Assembly: GCA_024220525.1 (NCBI GenBank)
Contig: JAMYWO010000358.1
Coordinates: 1-36,407, forward strand
From: Cochliopodium minus
Taxonomy: Eukaryota; Discosea; Himatismenida; Cochliopodiidae
Direction: 5' to 3'
DNA: 36,407 bases
The position numbers and the translations under genes are program-made. The number at the start of each line of letters is the position of its first letter. Position 1 is the first letter of the stretch. The notes under the pieces were generated by a model, which worked only from the letters and a program-made list of their open reading frames with translations, had not been told where the DNA came from and made no database searches. This document shows positions 7,706 through 34,081 of this stretch, piece after piece.

Positions 7706-10700
7706 ATGATATGTTTTTGATTTTTTTTTTTTATTTTTTTATCAATTTAAATAAGTGAAGTGTTTGGAAAGAATAATCAACACATATATACCTTTAAATC
7801 TGCCCCATCTCGCCAATTAATTTTATTCATTCAAAAAGTATTGGTCCATCAAAAGAAGAATATTCAAAGTAAAAATTTTATTGAACATCTTCTTTCAGCA
7901 AATTCAAAAAAAAAAATGATTAATGAGTTGAAGGTTGATATAGAAATAGAGGTGGATCTCAATAAAAGTGATATATATGAGAATGAGGGGAAGGAAGAGG
8001 AAAAAAAAGTAAATTTGAGGGATATTCCTCTTGCTATATGCATATCCAACACAGAGAAACAAATGGATGGCAAAAAGGAATACATGGTAAACAAATAAAC
8101 ATTAGCAAATGAATATTTATAGCATATTTGAGCACATTTTTGTTTAAAATATTTTAATATCAATGATAGTCATATGAAATAGAAATTCAGAAGGGATCAT
8201 TTGCAAGGTAATTACTATTTCAATAATAAATAAAGTTGGAAAATAAATATAAGAAGAAAATAATAATTGGATAAAAATTATTGAATCATTTAAATTTTAT
8301 TTTCTTCAAAATAAAACGTGAAGAAAATAAACATCCTTTTTGAAAATAATTAATTTTATTAAAAACATATATGCGAGTTTTTATCTTCAGAAAAACTTCA
8401 ACATTAAAGCAAAATAATGAAAGATATTTTTTAAAAAAGATGGAAAGTAGTGAAAAGGTATTCACAGTTGGCGGAATTAAACAGCTGGGTTAAAAAATGG
8501 TTTTTCGAAATTTTCAATCAACTTCCACCCTTCCCCAACAAACTCTCCATGTTCTCTTTGCAGTCCGAAGAGGAGTTTGTCAATAAAAGAAAGAAAGATT
8601 TCAACACCTATTTGCAGCATCTTTTGTCACACTCCAAGATAGTTCATTCTTACGAAGTACAATTGTTTTTCGAAATCAAGCAAAATGTAATCAATATTTT
8701 TTCAAATATTTAATTTTAATCTTTTTTTATTCAATATTATTATTAAAATTTTTTGAATTTTTTTTAAAGATTTGATCTCATATATTTTATTTTATTTTTA
8801 CTCTAATATTTTTACAAAATTTTTTAAAATATAACTTTATTAATAGTGATTTATTCATTATGTATATTTCAAAATTTTTATTCAACGTTTAAATAATATT
8901 TTATTCAATTGAAATACAATTTTTATATAAAGTTATTCTTTTGTGACATGGATATTGATTATAATTCATTAATTTTTTTTTATTTTTTTAAAAAAATAAG
9001 ATTCTTTCACTTGAAAATGAAAGAGAACCAATAAAAGTAATCGTTCCTCTTCCAGATAAAGACTTTGATCCCACAGAAAGTAAAAAAAATTAAAAAAAAA
9101 CTATTCCTATTTAGAATAAAAGAAAATGAATAAATTTTTTTTAAAAAAAAAAGTATCTGTTCCATGGAAGATATTAACAAACGAAGGAATTGATGGTAAT
9201 TTATTATTTTCAGTTTAAAATCTTTTATTTTTATTTATTTTTAAATTAATAAATTTTTTAAATTTTTTATTGTTAAATTAATAAATTTTTTTATTGTTTT
9301 AGATGTTTTTTTAAAAATTATTTTAAATATTTTTATTGAAAACAATTGAAAAAATTTTCGTTTAAAATAGTTTTTTTTGCGACTGAAAATGGAGATATCC
9401 CTTCTGCTGATCACATGCAAGTTTCTCCAGAAGGAGTATTATTAGGACAACTTGGAGCAGGTCTCAATATAAAACTTTTTTAAATAAATGAATGATTTTA
9501 AAATATTATAGAATTTGAAGCAAGGTAATTCATTTATTTAATTTTTTTTGATTCTTTTATTTTTGATTCTTTTATTTTTGAAAATTTTATAAATTTATTT
9601 TTATTTTTATTTTTTATTTTTATTTTTTATTATTTTATTTTGGTTTTTTATTTTTATTTTTATTTATTTATTTTTGAAATTTTTATAAATTTTTTTTTTA
9701 TTTTTTATTTTTTATTCATTTTTTTATTCATTTTTTTATTATTTTTTTTATTTTTTATTTTTTTTTGGTTTTTGGTTTTTATTTTTTATTTTTATTTTTT
9801 ATTTATATTTTTGATTTTTTTAAGCTTTAATCAATTTTTTCTAAAGGAAGTATTACGAAGAGATGGCAAATTCGGGAAACTTCAAAAAACCACTTGTATG
9901 GAAAGATCTAGAGATGGACAAATTTGACGGACTTTACCTTTGTGGAGGACATTCTCCTGGAATGAAACAATATTTAGAAAGTGAAACTTTACAAAATAAA
10001 ATTTATGATTTTTGGTTTGAAATTTCTTCAGAAAAATTTTTATATTTTTATTTTATTTTTTTGTTTTTTCATTATTTCAATTTAAAAATTTTTTTATTTC
10101 TTATTTTTATTTTTCATTAATTATTCATTATCAGGAAGTTAGAAAGACCTATCGCCGCAATGTAAAGAAATCTAAAAAAAAATCATTTTATTTTATGTAA
10201 ACACAATTTTTTAGATGGTAAAATTTTTTATTTTATTTTATTTTATTTTATTATTATTTTATTTTATTTTATTTTATTATTATTATTATTATTATTTTTT
10301 TTTTATTTTTTTTCAGTATTTTTTATTTTTATTAATTTTATTTATTTTTTCTAGTCACGGAACTCTTTTGCTGGCAAGAACTAAAGACCATAACACCTCC
10401 AAATCAGTTCTTGTGAACAGGAGGACTGCCACTTTGCCAAAGTACATGGAACAAGTAAAAAATCTTTATTTAGTAATTTAAATTATTTTTATTAAATTCA
10501 AAAAATTAGATGGCTTATTTCATTACAAGACCAAAGGTTTTATTTTATTTTATTTTTTTTTTTTTAAAACAATTAAAAAAAAATTTTTTTTGTTGACAAT
10601 TTTATTTATTTTTTCATTGACAAATTTTTTTTTTCATTATTTTTTTATGTTCATTTTTAAACAGGTTGGAAAGCTTTATAGAACTTACGAAAAATACTGT

Positions 10701-10904
10701 GAGGAGGAAGTGATAGAACTTATTGAAGACGAGAAGAACTATGAAAAGGGTCCCACAACTGTAGGATCCAAGGGAAACATTTTCGACAACTCCAAGGCTT
10801 TTTATTGCAGAGACAACAACTATTTATCTGCTAGATGGCCTGGTGACGCTTATCTTCTTGGAAAAGAGTTTTCTGAATTATTGTTAAAAGAAAAATCGAA
10901 ATAA
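7706..10904 (+). CDS. PX domain - DJ-1/PfpI domain fusion protein
   Basis: Fourteen exons: 7706-7712 (tentative), 7761-8086, 8170-8207, 8440-8686, 9001-9079, 9154-9195, 9371-9460, 9512-9524, 9847-10014, 10135-10161, 10215-10217, 10355-10454, 10511-10537, 10665-10904. Total 1407 nt, 468 aa. Residues about 85-200 form a PX domain: the 'WKVVKRYSQLAEL' phosphoinositide-pocket motif, 'LPPFPNK' proline loop and 'FVNKRKKDFNTYLQHLL' are clear, so endosomal membrane binding is expected. Residues about 210-468 are a DJ-1/PfpI (class I glutamine amidotransferase-like) domain: 'PLPDKDFDPTE', 'VPWKILTNEG', 'FFATENGDIPSAD', 'GLYLCGGHSPGM', nucleophile elbow 'AAICHG' (Cys about 347) and 'DNNYLSARWPGDAYLL'. 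These blocks match a bacterial single-domain family, suggesting transfer followed by intron gain. The substrate is unknown (protease, glyoxalase or deglycase-like chemistry are possibilities). If exon 1 is wrong, the ATG near 7918 would still include the whole PX domain. Confidence 0.87.
9512..9524 (+). other. 13-nt micro-exon in the DJ-1 domain
   Basis: This exon is flanked by 'atattatag' and 'gtaatt'. It supplies phase 2 at both ends and encodes E-F-E-A, joining 'GQLGA' to 'RKYYEEM'. Family alignment expects about this many residues between the two flanking blocks, and the frame is otherwise broken. Confidence 0.75.
10215..10217 (+). other. 3-nt micro-exon (ATG) completing the catalytic Cys codon
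   Basis: The exon ending at 10161 leaves a phase-2 'AT', followed by donor gtaaag. A 53-nt intron ends in ttttttag at 10214; then comes ATG, then donor gtaaaa at 10218; a 137-nt intron ends in ttttctag at 10354; the next exon begins T-CAC-GGA. Joining all three gives ATA TGT CAC GGA, that is I-C-H-G, the invariant DJ-1/PfpI elbow. Direct joining without the ATG gives ATT CAC GGA (I-H-G), in frame but lacking only the cysteine. The intron sizes fall within the range of others in the gene (51-56 nt introns at 9461-9511 and 10455-10510). Confidence 0.72.
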
Positions 10905-15357: not shown

Positions 15358-26213
<10,856 letters not shown>

Positions 26214-26562: not shown

Positions 26563-27723
26563 AAAATGGAGATGTTTATTCATTTGGATATTACAATAAT
26601 GGACAATGTGGATTAAAAAAAAAGTAAAAAAATTGGATTTTCCCCGTCTTTTATCAACAGATCCTAACATTCTTTCTATTTCTTGTTGATACAGTTCTTC
26701 ATTTTAAGAAGTAAAAAATTTAAATTATAATATCAAAATAAATGAAATATACTAAATAATTAATTAAAAATTTATTATGAAGAATAAATAAAAAAAAAGG
26801 AGAAGAAAAAGGGAAGACAATTTAGAAATGTTTTGGTTTTAATTCTAATGGTATTGGGAATTGGGAAATACCAATAACAATTGAAATTCAAACAATAAAC
26901 TCTTTTCCAAACATTTGTTCTGTTCATTGTGTTGGACAATTTACTTTCATTTTAACAAGTAAAGTTTTTTAATCTTTTAAAAAAATATAAAAATAATTTT
27001 TAAACATAAAAAATAAATGAATGTTAAAACAAAAAAATATCACTATAAAAGGAATTGGAGAAGTTTATCGATGTGATGGACAACTTGGTTCAGGAAATAA
27101 GATTAAAAATTATTCTTCTTTTACAAAAACTGATCTTCAAAACATTTCTTTCATCAAAACTGGAAATTTTCACTCCATATTTGTTAATAGTAAAAAACTA
27201 ATTTTAATTTATTTTTTTTTTTTTTAATAATTTTAATATTAAATTTTTTCATTATGAAAAATTATTTATTTTGGGAAATAAAGAAATATTTGTTTGTGGA
27301 AATGGAGATCATTTTCAATTAGTTTTGGGAGATGCAATTAGCAAAATAATGCTTGCAAACTTGAGTTTAATGATATCAAATTGATTCAAAACTGTACTGT
27401 ATGGTTGGTAAATAAATAATTATTTTATTCTTTTTTTAAAATTTTAAAATTTTTTAACATTTTTATTAAATTTAAACATTTTTTAAATAATTAAAATTCA
27501 CTTTTATTAGGATTGGTCTCCAGATAAACACAAATATTTCGCAAAAGGATTTACAGATAGATTAAAAGTGTTTGTGTTGTGTTTGAAAAGGATTTCTTCT
27601 TTCAACAAACTTTTCAAAATACCAAAACCTAATTTATTCATTGTCAATGGATCAGTTAATTTCCAAAAGTTTTTGACCCAAGGGATTGAAACAAATAAGT
27701 GTTCAGTTGATCATTTTTTTTAA
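26563..27723 (+). pseudogene. Broken RCC1-repeat paralog
   Basis: Exon-like blocks at about 26573-26706, 26804-26957, 27043-27190, 27281-27410 and 27511-27723 correspond to exons 2/6, 7, 8, 9 and 10 of the intact genes at 28234 and 31159. The first-exon equivalent (MKQNSTSCF...) and exons 3-5 are missing. The first block starts like exon 2 ('NGDVYSFG') and continues like exon 6 ('GQCG', then 'LLSTDPNILSIS'), with the switch near a shared 'ggacaatgtgga', so exons 2-6 were probably collapsed by recombination between repeats. In-frame stops occur in that block (after 'GQCGLKKK' and in the 'SISC' region). The last exon is still open and encodes 'DWSPDKHKYFAKGF..RLKVFVLCLKRISSF', running about 18 residues longer than in the intact copies. 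A shortened product from internal starts cannot be excluded. Confidence 0.8.
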
Positions 27724-28233
27724 AAACACTATCAAATAATAAAAATTTCAAAAACTATTAATAAACTTCTTTTAATTCCTTAATTGGTTTGAAATTTTTA
27801 AATTATAATAAATAATTTTAAATAATAAAATATTATTAATCTTCCAAAAAGACAACTGATTGATTAGGCTTTGTTTTTACTCACTAGTTTTCATTAAAAT
27901 TATTATTGAAAAATATTAAAAAAAATTCTGTTCTTTGAGGTAAATATCTTATCTTATAAAATTTTTCAAAATGAATCGCTATTATTTTTCAAAAAATATT
28001 GCAATCAAACCAAAAATAAAATATTTCAACAATATAAAATTTGTTTGTTATAAATTTATTAACATCAACAAAGATTTTGGGATGCGATAAACAGAATTTT
28101 GAAAATTAATTTTTTTTCAAATTAATTTTTAATTGAAAGGGAGAATAAAGTAATTATTTAATTAATTTTTTGATTTGGAAGATTCTTTTACATCTGAAAT
28201 AATAGAAAAATAATTGTAAAACAAAAATTAGAA
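27724..28233. other. Intergenic region before RCC1 copy A
   Basis: This 510-bp AT-rich stretch lies between the broken RCC1 paralog and the first intact plus-strand copy. It does not resemble the matching spacer upstream of copy B in any obvious way. I see no gene or repeat in it. Confidence 0.5.
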
Positions 28234-30646
28234 ATGAAACAAAACTCTACTTCTTGCTTTTCCCAACACAATATTTTCATGAAAGGTAATAAAAATATAA
28301 AAAAAAAAATTAATAAAAAGAATAATATATAAAAAATAAATTTTTAATAAATGAAAAAAAAATGAACAAAAATAAAAAATAATTTAAATTCAGAAAATGG
28401 AGATGTTTATTCATTTGGGAGTAATGGTTACGGACAATGTGGAAAAGGAAATAGAACTCCTGCCAAAACACCAACTTTGATTATGAATAATCCTAAAATA
28501 AAATCAATTGTCTTGGGAATATACAATTCTTTTTATTTGGAAGGTAATTTTAATTTTTTTATTATTTATTAAAATTCTTTTTATTAATTATTTTACTAGA
28601 TTTTTTATTTTTGTCCATTTTACCAGATTTTTTTAATTATAATTTTTTATTTTTTGAAAAATTTTTTTAGAAGATGGAAATTTGTTTGGATGTGGTAATT
28701 TTACTTCAAAAACAAAATATTTTTTTTAGGATTATTTAATTTTAAATAATTTAGGTCATAACGATTATGGACATTTGGGAATAAAAAATAATAAAACAAA
28801 TTTATCAACATTTACTTTCATTTCTTCTAATGTTACTCAAATTTGTGCTTCTTATAAACTCGTTTTTATTCAAAAAGGTAATTTAATTATTAAATTATTC
28901 CATTTCTTTTTATTTTTCATCTTTTTTATTTTTTAAATTTTTTTTTTATTTTTTTTTTATTTTTTTTTAATTATAATTTATTTTAGATGATGGGAAAATA
29001 TATTGGAGTGGATATTGGGAAGGATTAAATAGACTAAGTGATGGTTTTACAGAAATAAACATTGATAATGTCATCTCTTTTTCTTGTGGATCTAATCATG
29101 CTTTGTTTTTAAAAAGTAAAAAGTTTATTAAAAAAATTAGAAATCAACTAAAATGAAAAAAAATAAAAAATAAAAAATAAATAAATAATTAAAATTTTTA
29201 AAAAAGAAAATGGAGAAGTGTGGGTGATGGGAAATAATAAATTTGGACAATGTGGATTTGAAAAAAAAGTAAATGAAGTGAATGTCCCTCTTCTTTTATT
29301 AACAGATCCTAATATTCTTTCTATTTCTTGTGGATACGGTTCTTCTTTCATTTTAACTCGTAAAAGGATGGAAAAAAAAAATCTAAAATAAAATACATTA
29401 AATTTATTATACAAACACAATAAAAAATAAAATATAAAAATAAAATAAAAATATGTAAAATAATAATAATAAAAAAACATTAAATTTATTATACAAACAC
29501 AAATAAAAAATAAAATGTAAAAATAAAATAAAAAAATGTAAAATATAAAACAAGAATAAAAATTAAAAAATAAATAATAAAAAATAAATGAAATATAATA
29601 AATAATTGGTTAAAAATCACTTATTTTTTACACAGATTATAAAATCAATAAAGTAAATTTAATTAATAATTTAAAATAAAAAAAGGAGAAGAAAAAGGAA
29701 ATACAATTTTGAAATGTTTTGGATATAATTCACATGGGCAATTAGGACTAGGAAATACCAAAAATATATTTTCGATTCAAACAATAAATTCTTTCCCAAA
29801 TATTTGTTCTGTTCATTGTGGTGGATTCTCTTTTAGTTTCATTTTAACAAGTAAACAATTTAAATTTATGGATAATACAAAAATTATTAATATGTATAAA
29901 ATCATTTTCAAAATAAAAAATAAAAAATAAAAAATCATAATCAAAAATAAAATTCATTACCAAAATAAAAAATAAAATTACTTGTTAAATATAAATTTTT
30001 TAGGAGATGGAGAAGTTTATGGAAGTGGAAACAATGAATATGCACAACTTGGATTAAGAAATAAAAAAACTATTTCTTCTTTTACAAAAATTAATCTTCA
30101 AAACATTTCTTACATTACAACTGGATATTACCATTCTGTTTTTGTTAACAGTAAAAAATTTATACATTTATTTTTATTCATTATTTTATCTTGTTTATTA
30201 TTTAAATAAAAATATATTTCTATGAATATTATTTATTAGGAAATAAAGAAATATTTTTTTGTGGAAGTTGTCAATTAGGATTGGGAAATACAATGAAAAG
30301 AAACACGCCTTGCAAACTTGAATTTGATGATATCAAATTGATTCAAAACAATGTTCTTTGCTGTGTAACAAAAATTTAATTTTAATTTTGTTTAAATAAT
30401 TTTATTTTTAATTTTTTAAAAAATTGACTTTCTTTTCCATTTTTGTTTTTATAATAATCATTTTTAATTATTAAAATTCACCTTTATTAGAATTGGTCTC
30501 CAGAAGAACACAAATATTTTCCAAAAGGATTCAAAGATAGAATAAAAGTGTTTGTGTTGTGCTTGAAAAGGATTTCTTCTTTCAACAAACTTTTCAAAAT
30601 ACCAAAACCTGTTTTGTTTCTTGTAATTGTATCAGTAGATTTTTAA
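28234..30646 (+). CDS. RCC1-repeat protein, tandem copy A
   Basis: Ten exons: 28234-28285, 28394-28543, 28671-28694 (24 nt), 28755-28877, 28987-29115, 29207-29359, 29686-29850, 30004-30150, 30240-30364, 30491-30646. Total 1224 nt, 407 aa. It starts MKQNSTSCFSQHNIFMK, followed by about seven RCC1 blades ('NGDVYSFGSNGYGQCG', 'HNDYGHLG', 'GEVWVMGNNKFGQCG', 'NSHGQLGLG', 'GEVYGSGNNEYAQLGL', 'EIFFCGSCQLGLG'). The C-terminal module reads 'NWSPEEHKYFPKGFKDRIKV' followed by a 'KIPKP' segment. Blade 3 is weak (SGYWEGLNRL). A propeller scaffold or GEF-like role is the family expectation only. Exons 2-10 and their introns are apparently identical to copy B up to 30593; exon 1 and the last about 17 codons differ. 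Codons are AT-ending, unlike the RasGEF and BEACH genes. Confidence 0.92.
28392..30593 (+). repeat. Duplicated 2.2-kb segment, copy A
   Basis: This segment matches 31308-33509 with a constant offset of 2916 bp. By eye I found no mismatch, including in the intron low-complexity tracts. Similarity drops abruptly just before exon 2 (C versus T at 28391) and inside exon 10 (T versus A at 30594). Confidence 0.85.
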
Positions 30647-31158
30647 AAGTTTTTTACCCAAAGTTTTTCATAAATTGTTCTGCTCAAGCAAATTTTTTCC
30701 TTGTCAATAATAAAAGGCAATCTCTTATAAAAAAATAATTTTATTATAAGATTTCATTAAAAAAATTTCTTTGATATTTTGGTAAAATTCTCCCTATAAT
30801 TTCCTTTCTCATAAAACATTTAATTTTCCTATGAATCCCATTTTATTTTATATAAGAATTTTTTGAAAGGATTTCAAAAAATATTACAACAGTTTATATT
30901 TTGTAAGTAATAATTTTATGTACTCTAACAAAGTTGTAATATTTGGAAATGTCAAGCATTTTTTCTTGAATGCTTCATAATATGGAAGAAATTTTCTCCA
31001 ACATAACAAGAAATTATTTGCATTTGAATCCGATTCAATATACAACAAATAAAAATAACATTGTATTTGGTTATATCTCTCATATCATGTTTGATTTTTA
31101 TAATCATCTAAAATTAAAAAGTAAGAAAAATTACTAGGAACAACAAAGAATTTCAAAA
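30647..31158. other. Intergenic region between RCC1 copies A and B
   Basis: This 512-bp spacer is AT-rich and has no recognisable gene. It is not a copy of the 27724-28233 spacer, so the identical segment does not extend into flanking DNA. Confidence 0.5.
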
Positions 31159-33562
31159 ATGAAACAAAACTCCACTTCTTGTTTTTCTCGTCACAATATT
31201 TTTTTGAAAGGTAATAAAGGTATAAGAAAAAAAAATTAATAAAAAGAATATTTAAAAAATTAAAATGAATAAAAATAAATAAAATGAAAATAAAATAATT
31301 TAAATTTAGAAAATGGAGATGTTTATTCATTTGGGAGTAATGGTTACGGACAATGTGGAAAAGGAAATAGAACTCCTGCCAAAACACCAACTTTGATTAT
31401 GAATAATCCTAAAATAAAATCAATTGTCTTGGGAATATACAATTCTTTTTATTTGGAAGGTAATTTTAATTTTTTTATTATTTATTAAAATTCTTTTTAT
31501 TAATTATTTTACTAGATTTTTTATTTTTGTCCATTTTACCAGATTTTTTTAATTATAATTTTTTATTTTTTGAAAAATTTTTTTAGAAGATGGAAATTTG
31601 TTTGGATGTGGTAATTTTACTTCAAAAACAAAATATTTTTTTTAGGATTATTTAATTTTAAATAATTTAGGTCATAACGATTATGGACATTTGGGAATAA
31701 AAAATAATAAAACAAATTTATCAACATTTACTTTCATTTCTTCTAATGTTACTCAAATTTGTGCTTCTTATAAACTCGTTTTTATTCAAAAAGGTAATTT
31801 AATTATTAAATTATTCCATTTCTTTTTATTTTTCATCTTTTTTATTTTTTAAATTTTTTTTTTATTTTTTTTTTATTTTTTTTTAATTATAATTTATTTT
31901 AGATGATGGGAAAATATATTGGAGTGGATATTGGGAAGGATTAAATAGACTAAGTGATGGTTTTACAGAAATAAACATTGATAATGTCATCTCTTTTTCT
32001 TGTGGATCTAATCATGCTTTGTTTTTAAAAAGTAAAAAGTTTATTAAAAAAATTAGAAATCAACTAAAATGAAAAAAAATAAAAAATAAAAAATAAATAA
32101 ATAATTAAAATTTTTAAAAAAGAAAATGGAGAAGTGTGGGTGATGGGAAATAATAAATTTGGACAATGTGGATTTGAAAAAAAAGTAAATGAAGTGAATG
32201 TCCCTCTTCTTTTATTAACAGATCCTAATATTCTTTCTATTTCTTGTGGATACGGTTCTTCTTTCATTTTAACTCGTAAAAGGATGGAAAAAAAAAATCT
32301 AAAATAAAATACATTAAATTTATTATACAAACACAATAAAAAATAAAATATAAAAATAAAATAAAAATATGTAAAATAATAATAATAAAAAAACATTAAA
32401 TTTATTATACAAACACAAATAAAAAATAAAATGTAAAAATAAAATAAAAAAATGTAAAATATAAAACAAGAATAAAAATTAAAAAATAAATAATAAAAAA
32501 TAAATGAAATATAATAAATAATTGGTTAAAAATCACTTATTTTTTACACAGATTATAAAATCAATAAAGTAAATTTAATTAATAATTTAAAATAAAAAAA
32601 GGAGAAGAAAAAGGAAATACAATTTTGAAATGTTTTGGATATAATTCACATGGGCAATTAGGACTAGGAAATACCAAAAATATATTTTCGATTCAAACAA
32701 TAAATTCTTTCCCAAATATTTGTTCTGTTCATTGTGGTGGATTCTCTTTTAGTTTCATTTTAACAAGTAAACAATTTAAATTTATGGATAATACAAAAAT
32801 TATTAATATGTATAAAATCATTTTCAAAATAAAAAATAAAAAATAAAAAATCATAATCAAAAATAAAATTCATTACCAAAATAAAAAATAAAATTACTTG
32901 TTAAATATAAATTTTTTAGGAGATGGAGAAGTTTATGGAAGTGGAAACAATGAATATGCACAACTTGGATTAAGAAATAAAAAAACTATTTCTTCTTTTA
33001 CAAAAATTAATCTTCAAAACATTTCTTACATTACAACTGGATATTACCATTCTGTTTTTGTTAACAGTAAAAAATTTATACATTTATTTTTATTCATTAT
33101 TTTATCTTGTTTATTATTTAAATAAAAATATATTTCTATGAATATTATTTATTAGGAAATAAAGAAATATTTTTTTGTGGAAGTTGTCAATTAGGATTGG
33201 GAAATACAATGAAAAGAAACACGCCTTGCAAACTTGAATTTGATGATATCAAATTGATTCAAAACAATGTTCTTTGCTGTGTAACAAAAATTTAATTTTA
33301 ATTTTGTTTAAATAATTTTATTTTTAATTTTTTAAAAAATTGACTTTCTTTTCCATTTTTGTTTTTATAATAATCATTTTTAATTATTAAAATTCACCTT
33401 TATTAGAATTGGTCTCCAGAAGAACACAAATATTTTCCAAAAGGATTCAAAGATAGAATAAAAGTGTTTGTGTTGTGCTTGAAAAGGATTTCTTCTTTCA
33501 ACAAACTTTACAAAATACCAAAACCTATTTTGTTCATTGTCATTGGATCAGTGAAACATTAA
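31159..33562 (+). CDS. RCC1-repeat protein, tandem copy B
   Basis: Ten exons: 31159-31210, 31310-31459, 31587-31610, 31671-31793, 31903-32031, 32123-32275, 32602-32766, 32920-33066, 33156-33280, 33407-33562. Total length is the same as copy A (407 aa). Exon 1 (MKQNSTSCFSRHNIFLK) differs from copy A at 7 of 52 bases. The C-terminal end differs as well: 'LYKIPKPILFIVIGSVKH' here against 'LFKIPKPVLFLVIVSVDF' in copy A. Everything between is apparently the same. Domain content is as in copy A: about seven RCC1 blades and the WSPxxHK module. The C-terminus of copy B resembles the decayed fragment at 26361-26475 more than it resembles copy A, which suggests several old paralogs with mixing between them. 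Confidence 0.92.
31308..33509 (+). repeat. Duplicated 2.2-kb segment, copy B
   Basis: Partner of 28392-30593. Identity covers exons 2-9, most of exon 10 and all intervening introns, while flanking exon 1 (about 87% identical) and the 3' tail are diverged. Confidence 0.85.
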
Positions 33563-34081
33563 AAAGTTTGTTGACTCAAATTGAAATATTTCTTCAGTAG
33601 AGCATTTTTTTAAAAAACAATTCCATCAAATATTAATTCGTAAAAACTTCAATGTTTGAACAAAAAAGAACTTTTTGTTACTATTTATTAATTCATAGTT
33701 TGAAAGAAGAAATTAAATGAGGATTGTTAATATGGTACCCAAAAATGCATTGAAATGTGACAAATAATGTGAAGCTGGAACACATAACTAAAAATTATAA
33801 AAAACTAATTAATAAGCTCATATGTCTATTCAATGGAAGATTTCATAGATGAGATATAGGTTCTTTCTTGAGAAGTTTTCACAAGTAAATAGCTTTTAGT
33901 TTTGTTTTTCCCATTTAATTAAAATATTTGGTGTGATTTTTTTTTTAATGATGCTAATTTCCTTTTTTTCAATTGTTGTTCTTTTGGATTTAAATGACCT
34001 TTTTTAGTTTTAATAATCAAGATATCTTTCCAACATTTTTTTTAGAAATGGTAAAAAATTAAATTAAAAAACAACTATAAA
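33563..34081. promoter_or_regulatory. Intergenic region upstream of the Ras gene
   Basis: This 519-bp stretch between RCC1 copy B and the Ras-like gene is AT-rich with no reading frame or repeat that I can support. It presumably holds the Ras promoter. Confidence 0.4.

Follow-up and report, generated by a model that had tools for sequence, protein, structure and literature searches.

The window, the 36,407-nucleotide stretch of DNA analysed here, is a contig of 18–35% GC (2-kb steps) in an AT-rich eukaryotic assembly of 44.65 Mb. On its forward strand, 13 modelled exons and 12 introns span positions 7756–10904 in one frame through to a stop codon, with 1,405 modelled coding bases. The predicted product is a fusion of a PX domain and a ThiJ-like domain of the DJ-1/PfpI superfamily, matching the Pfam families PX, ThiJ_like (PF17124) and DJ-1_PfpI (PF01965). 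The first modelled exon (7756–8086), placed by our ab initio model, splice sites and frame, is an open frame N-terminal to the PX domain, 7756 not being an assigned start codon. The PX domain begins in exon 8170–8207 (SYEIEIQKGSFA; ab initio model, splice sites, frame and homologue alignment), and its remainder occupies exon 8440–8686, which is supported by homologues and by a PF00787 match to its 8486–8686 part (E 8.3e-9). The ThiJ-like/DJ-1 domain starts in exon 9001–9079 with the motif DFDPTE, including its glutamate, and, by frame and homologue alignment, runs on through exon 9154–9195 (42 nt, SVPWKILTNEGID), exon 9371–9460 (90 nt, FFATENGD...), a 13-nt micro-exon at 9512–9524 (EFEAR; ab initio log-ratio 7.62) and exon 9847–10014 (168 nt, KYYEEM...GGHSPGMKQYLES...). 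There follow exon 10135–10161 (27 nt), an intron of 53 nt (10162–10214, gtaaag...ttttttag), a candidate exon of three nucleotides, ATG, at 10215–10217, an intron of 137 nt (10218–10354, gtaaaa...ttttctag), exon 10355–10454 (100 nt), exon 10510–10536 (27 nt, MAYFITRPK; frame and homologue alignment) and the last exon, 10665–10904 (VGKLYRTYEKYC...RWPGDAYLLGKE...; frame and homologues), which ends in TAA. The exons that run from the PX domain through the stop codon are joined in a single frame, and their product aligns with homologues.

The 27-nt exon ends in GCC GCA AT, the AT being the first two bases of an isoleucine codon, and is followed by gtaaag, while the 100-nt exon opens with T CAC GGA and is preceded by ttttctag. 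Splicing 10161 straight to 10355 yields A-A-I-H-G (...PIAAIHGTLLL...) with the frame kept. Splicing by way of the ATG, which is framed by ttttttag on its 5' side and gtaaaa on its 3' side, yields ...WKLERPIAAICHGTLLLARTK... with A-A-I-C-H-G and an unchanged frame, so that the sequence of 10160–10360 and its two readings are as an earlier note on this DNA had described them. That note also held that skipping the ATG would cost the cysteine alone without a frameshift; the direct join is indeed open and in frame, with the refinement that the ATG is not a codon but covers parts of two, being split AT/A TG/T, so that it ends the isoleucine codon and gives the TG of the cysteine codon. Because it spans two codons, isoleucine is encoded with or without it and the cysteine alone depends on it. 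With its AG/GT borders and viable introns of 53 and 137 nt, 10215–10217 would fall within the class of micro-exons (spliceosomal exons of about 30 nt or less). When it is included, the product has the cysteine followed by histidine that marks the nucleophile elbow of the family, and without it the product does not. The Pfam scores rise with the exon from 105.4 to 116.2 bits for PF17124 (cut-off 30) and from 38.8 to 52.8 bits for PF01965 (cut-off 26.6), both cut-offs being passed either way.

We enumerated the splice paths across this region using GT or GC donors, AG acceptors, introns of at least 30 nt and zero or one internal exon, with AT-AC introns set aside. Among the 29 GT/GC-AG combinations, nine were open and in frame, and a single one, the path through 10215–10217, produced CHG; the direct join of 10161 to 10355, which also uses GT-AG sites, is another of the nine. 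Other splice solutions were thus ruled out, CHG arising from no other enumerated GT/GC-AG path. The ATG is moreover the sole AG..GT candidate exon of at most 30 nt in 10162–10354 that leaves an intron of at least 40 nt on each side. The chance of such a site was estimated from simulated introns of 193 nt scored for a usable AG[ACT]TGGT under nine null models. Order-1 models gave 0.0013–0.0016; order-2 models gave 0.0029–0.0035 when trained on pooled introns and 0.0205 when trained on the 10162–10354 intron alone; order-3 models gave 0.0056–0.0138 on pooled introns and 0.24 on that intron alone, where the model has memorised the site. In eight of the nine models, therefore, a chance site in this intron has a probability of about 0.1–2%. 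The window as a whole contains AGHTGGT 17 times, against 5.8 expected from shuffles.

The homologue set consisted of the best 120 of 2,919 and the best 120 of 2,899 matches, together 124 distinct proteins at most 58% identical. At the position of the cysteine, 122 of the 124 listed homologues have cysteine, one has serine and one histidine, and in none of the 124 does a gap fall within three positions of that column; in the first set by itself (best 120 of 2,919) the counts are 119 cysteine and one serine. The glutamate of DFDPTE is kept in 123 of the 124, the remaining one having a gap, and by analogy with Glu22, a putative catalytic residue of Pseudomonas aeruginosa PfpI (PMC11987610), it may act as the upstream glutamate near the nucleophile. 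In that PfpI, methylglyoxalase activity was confirmed to require the elbow residues Cys112 and His113 (PMC11987610). The present protein resembles it in the Cys-His of the elbow and the upstream glutamate, and would presumably be an active enzyme, but unlike PfpI as described there it is of the PF17124 type, is fused to a PX domain and has its elbow codons split by two introns. The PX-ThiJ fusion recurs in 12 proteins among the best 120 of 2,899 matches (sources jgi, lgn and eukprot), covering 82–99% of the PX-to-stop product; a limited literature search returned no paper on the fusion by title. All four of the 12 that come from EukProt, with assembled-transcript names, read ICHG. Ten of the 12 listed fusions have the cysteine and two do not, P0036 having serine (AISQG) and P0125 histidine (AIHSG). 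P0125 contains unusual insertions, and its gene call may be unreliable; judged from their sequences, both are possibly inactive members of the group. Loss of the cysteine by substitution therefore occurs among the fusions, whereas none of the listed homologues had lost the position itself. No second copy of the gene was found in the genome assembly, and the idea that another copy supplies the cysteine was accordingly rejected; in a DNA-level paralogue search the matches other than the locus itself fell for the most part on the stretch of the query that corresponds to the 10537–10664 intron. Other DJ-1/PfpI matches in the genome are distant, and two of them, L003 (AAICASP) and L002 (SVCTG), carry the elbow cysteine within one unbroken exon each.

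A small gene-finding model was trained on 168 kb, namely the window plus the unmasked sequence of C1:1–200000 from the same assembly; the 10162–10354 intron was excluded from the starting introns, and re-training was restricted to introns between predicted exons of at least 45 nt. A first version with loose splice costs had been discarded, as false micro-exons proliferated. The model called 430 introns in the 168 kb and predicted 10215–10217 as an exon unaided, the sole 3-nt exon that it called. Its preference for this exon was weak (1.21 nats), and two nearby splice sites were set wrongly, the 168-nt exon ending at 9980 instead of 10014 and the 27-nt exon starting at 10143 instead of 10135. 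Ranked among the sites of 266 predicted introns, 12 of which are 53 nt or shorter, the acceptor of the 3-nt exon stands at the 83rd percentile and its donor at the 64th, compared with the 21st for the outer donor at 10162 and the 43rd for the outer acceptor; the donor at 10162 is required by inclusion and skipping alike.

Micro-exons were also predicted elsewhere in the genome. Predicted internal exons of at most 15 nt numbered 21 across 409 intron regions; 12 controls in which the intron interiors had been shuffled averaged 6.2 (range 1–10). For exons of at most 6 nt the count (6) was indistinguishable from the controls (0–6), and for exons of exactly 3 nt it was one, against two over all 12 controls, a spurious one appearing in 2/12. 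Two of the genes concerned, which contain some of the strongest of these other predictions, lie in segments of C1:1–200000 that begin at 99455 and 137881 (loci L022–L041) and are identified by ab initio prediction and conserved domains: a Sel1-repeat protein with predicted exons of 13 and 13 nt, the joined product of which matches Sel1 at 162.1 bits, and a Na/Ca exchanger with predicted exons of 15 and 8 nt, the joined product of which matches Na_Ca_ex at 83.3 bits and the 15-nt exon of which falls in GATLLAAGTSSPE. A 1-nt exon predicted on C1 is not claimed, as it sits in an apparently falsely fused gene. Rab/Ras-like genes in two C1 segments, which begin at 19566 and 28122, repeatedly show predicted 18-nt and 20-nt exons at the DTAGQERF motif. 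Within the window, a PH-BEACH protein of 2,263 aa is encoded at 15358–26212 by 21 modelled exons, the shortest of 73 nt; small exons are therefore not uniform across genes.

Given the unique CHG path, the conservation of the cysteine, the low chance of such a site, the predicted micro-exons in this and other genes and a probability of 0.28 for so small an exon under random intron placement, we conclude that the 3-nt exon is very probably real and gives a DJ-1-like enzyme its reactive cysteine; most likely it is included constitutively, as a by-product of closely packed introns. The complete reading, in which two introns split the elbow codons of a PX-ThiJ-like gene and the 3-nt exon, originating from intron density, is included constitutively by sequential intron-defined splicing, receives a probability of roughly 0.84. 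Counted against it are the two cysteine-less proteins among the 12 fusions, the weak 1.21-nat preference, the spurious 3-nt exons in 2/12 shuffled controls, the count of exons of at most 6 nt lying within the control range, the misplaced neighbouring sites and the 21st-percentile donor at 10162. As to origin, 12 introns placed at random in 1,405 coding bases leave one or more internal exons of at most 3 nt with P = 0.284, and the corresponding expectation over all predicted genes is 8.2 such exons, against 2 predicted among 366 internal exons. Exons of this size are therefore expected from intron density. The shortfall may reflect selection against them, or it may reflect missed exons, because the model hardly detects exon lengths divisible by 3.

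In the mechanism we propose, introns landing close together in a very intron-dense gene would have left the 3-nt exon, the codons of the nucleophile elbow being split by two introns three mRNA bases apart. Three nucleotides are probably too few for both splice complexes at once. The flanking introns, short (53 and 137 nt) and AT-rich, would instead be recognised across the intron and removed one after another, removal of the first presumably making the other junction an ordinary one, so that most mRNA molecules, or all of them, would retain the 3 nt and encode an enzyme with its cysteine. This accords with published views of micro-exons: steric interference has been cited and splicing by intron definition argued, the latter being easier with short flanking introns (PMC8378409), and a section title in a paper on a 4-nt constitutive exon states that splicing was maintained until exon length was cut to zero (PMC9929638).

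The earlier note had gone further and raised a splicing on/off switch as a possibility. Such a switch is conceivable because only one residue, the presumed catalytic nucleophile, depends on the exon and its skipping leaves the frame unchanged: a real but regulated exon would, when skipped, leave an in-frame protein one residue shorter, without the nucleophile and with the enzyme off. The skipped path is open, in frame and bounded by GT-AG sites, cysteine-less members exist in nature (2/12 listed fusions), and the exon of Drosophila TnT, also 3 nt, is reported as skipped in a larval muscle system (PMC8042270). Against this, the splice sites of the 3-nt exon itself score well (83rd and 64th percentiles), an elbow gap occurs in 0/124 listed homologues, the loss of a residue from the elbow would probably harm the fold as well as the chemistry, and one third of tiny exons keep the frame by chance. 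Since dense intron placement explains the exon without a switch, the proposal lacks support, and we regard a regulated exon as improbable. Its purposeful form, in which both mRNAs are made by design, one for an active enzyme and the other for a dead protein one residue shorter that is targeted to membranes by the PX domain, is slightly less probable again; were it true, a single-residue exon would serve as the on/off switch of one active site.

The ATG might instead be an accident, with 10161 joined to 10355 in a cysteine-less ThiJ-like protein. This direct join likewise satisfies frame and GT-AG sites, and the two fusion homologues without cysteine give it some precedent, but it requires a residue loss found in 0/124 listed homologues together with a chance site (about 0.1–2% in 8/9 null models) that exactly restores the motif, in a gene where the glutamate, histidine and glycine of the site are still present; we consider it highly improbable. 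An error of sequence or assembly, or a decaying gene, is scarcely credible: although there is a single assembly with no second copy found in it, the PX-to-stop exons join in frame, the 12 fusion homologues cover 82–99% of their product, and an error would have had to produce AG-ATG-GT exactly.

Ultra-small exons as such are not new. Exons of 3 nt and 1 nt, some of them in conserved motifs, have been published, and the view that the present exon is among the smallest possible does not hold, 1-nt exons being described in Arabidopsis APC11 (PMC4674806) and Fusarium CYP621A (PMC12940212). Two features set the present exon apart: no residue but the presumed catalytic nucleophile depends on it, and its omission would leave the reading frame intact; a limited literature search, partly by title, found no prior report of a 3-nt exon supplying a catalytic cysteine or of a micro-exon in DJ-1. 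The 1-nt exon of CYP621A is similar in kind, lying in a conserved motif of an enzyme and having likewise been deduced because the flanking exons alone spoil the motif. Its omission, however, breaks the phase, and it is backed by SRA reads and 20 orthologous genes (PMC12940212), whereas the present exon, the skipping of which would keep the frame, is predicted from one sequence. The plant genes APC11 (PMC4674806) and VPS55 (PMC8831610) resemble the present gene in having an ultra-small exon between introns, which for Arabidopsis APC11 is stated to be constitutive; unlike ours, these 1-nt exons were demonstrated by RT-PCR and RNA-seq and are not a multiple of three (PMC4674806, PMC8831610). Isoforms lacking the VPS55 exon are reported in some plants (PMC8831610).

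Exons that are 3 nt and in frame, as here, are described in Drosophila homothorax (micro-Ex8; PMC7392893), Drosophila TnT and mouse Ncam (PMC8042270). In contrast to ours these are animal exons, those of homothorax and TnT being described as alternatively spliced (PMC7392893, PMC8042270), and the available portions of the two reports make no mention that we found of a catalytic residue encoded by any of the three. The human MPC1 micro-exon is tiny and stated to be constitutively included, as we propose here, but it is 4 nt long and not a multiple of three, and its exon-defining flanking-intron regions were demonstrated with minigenes (PMC9929638). The locus would offer a clean test of the minimum exon size for the spliceosome on short AT-rich introns and of whether an exon so small can come under regulation, and it illustrates clearly how an enzyme would seem inactive if a gene call overlooked three isolated bases within an intron.

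Elsewhere in the window, positions 27481–33577 hold a tandem array in which three copies of a 201-nt stretch are spaced by 2,980 and 2,916 bases and are 88 and 85% identical, and in which a 300-nt stretch is present in two copies (87%). The gene model of the array shows repeated exon sets, and its opposite strand carries two identical open frames of 153 aa.
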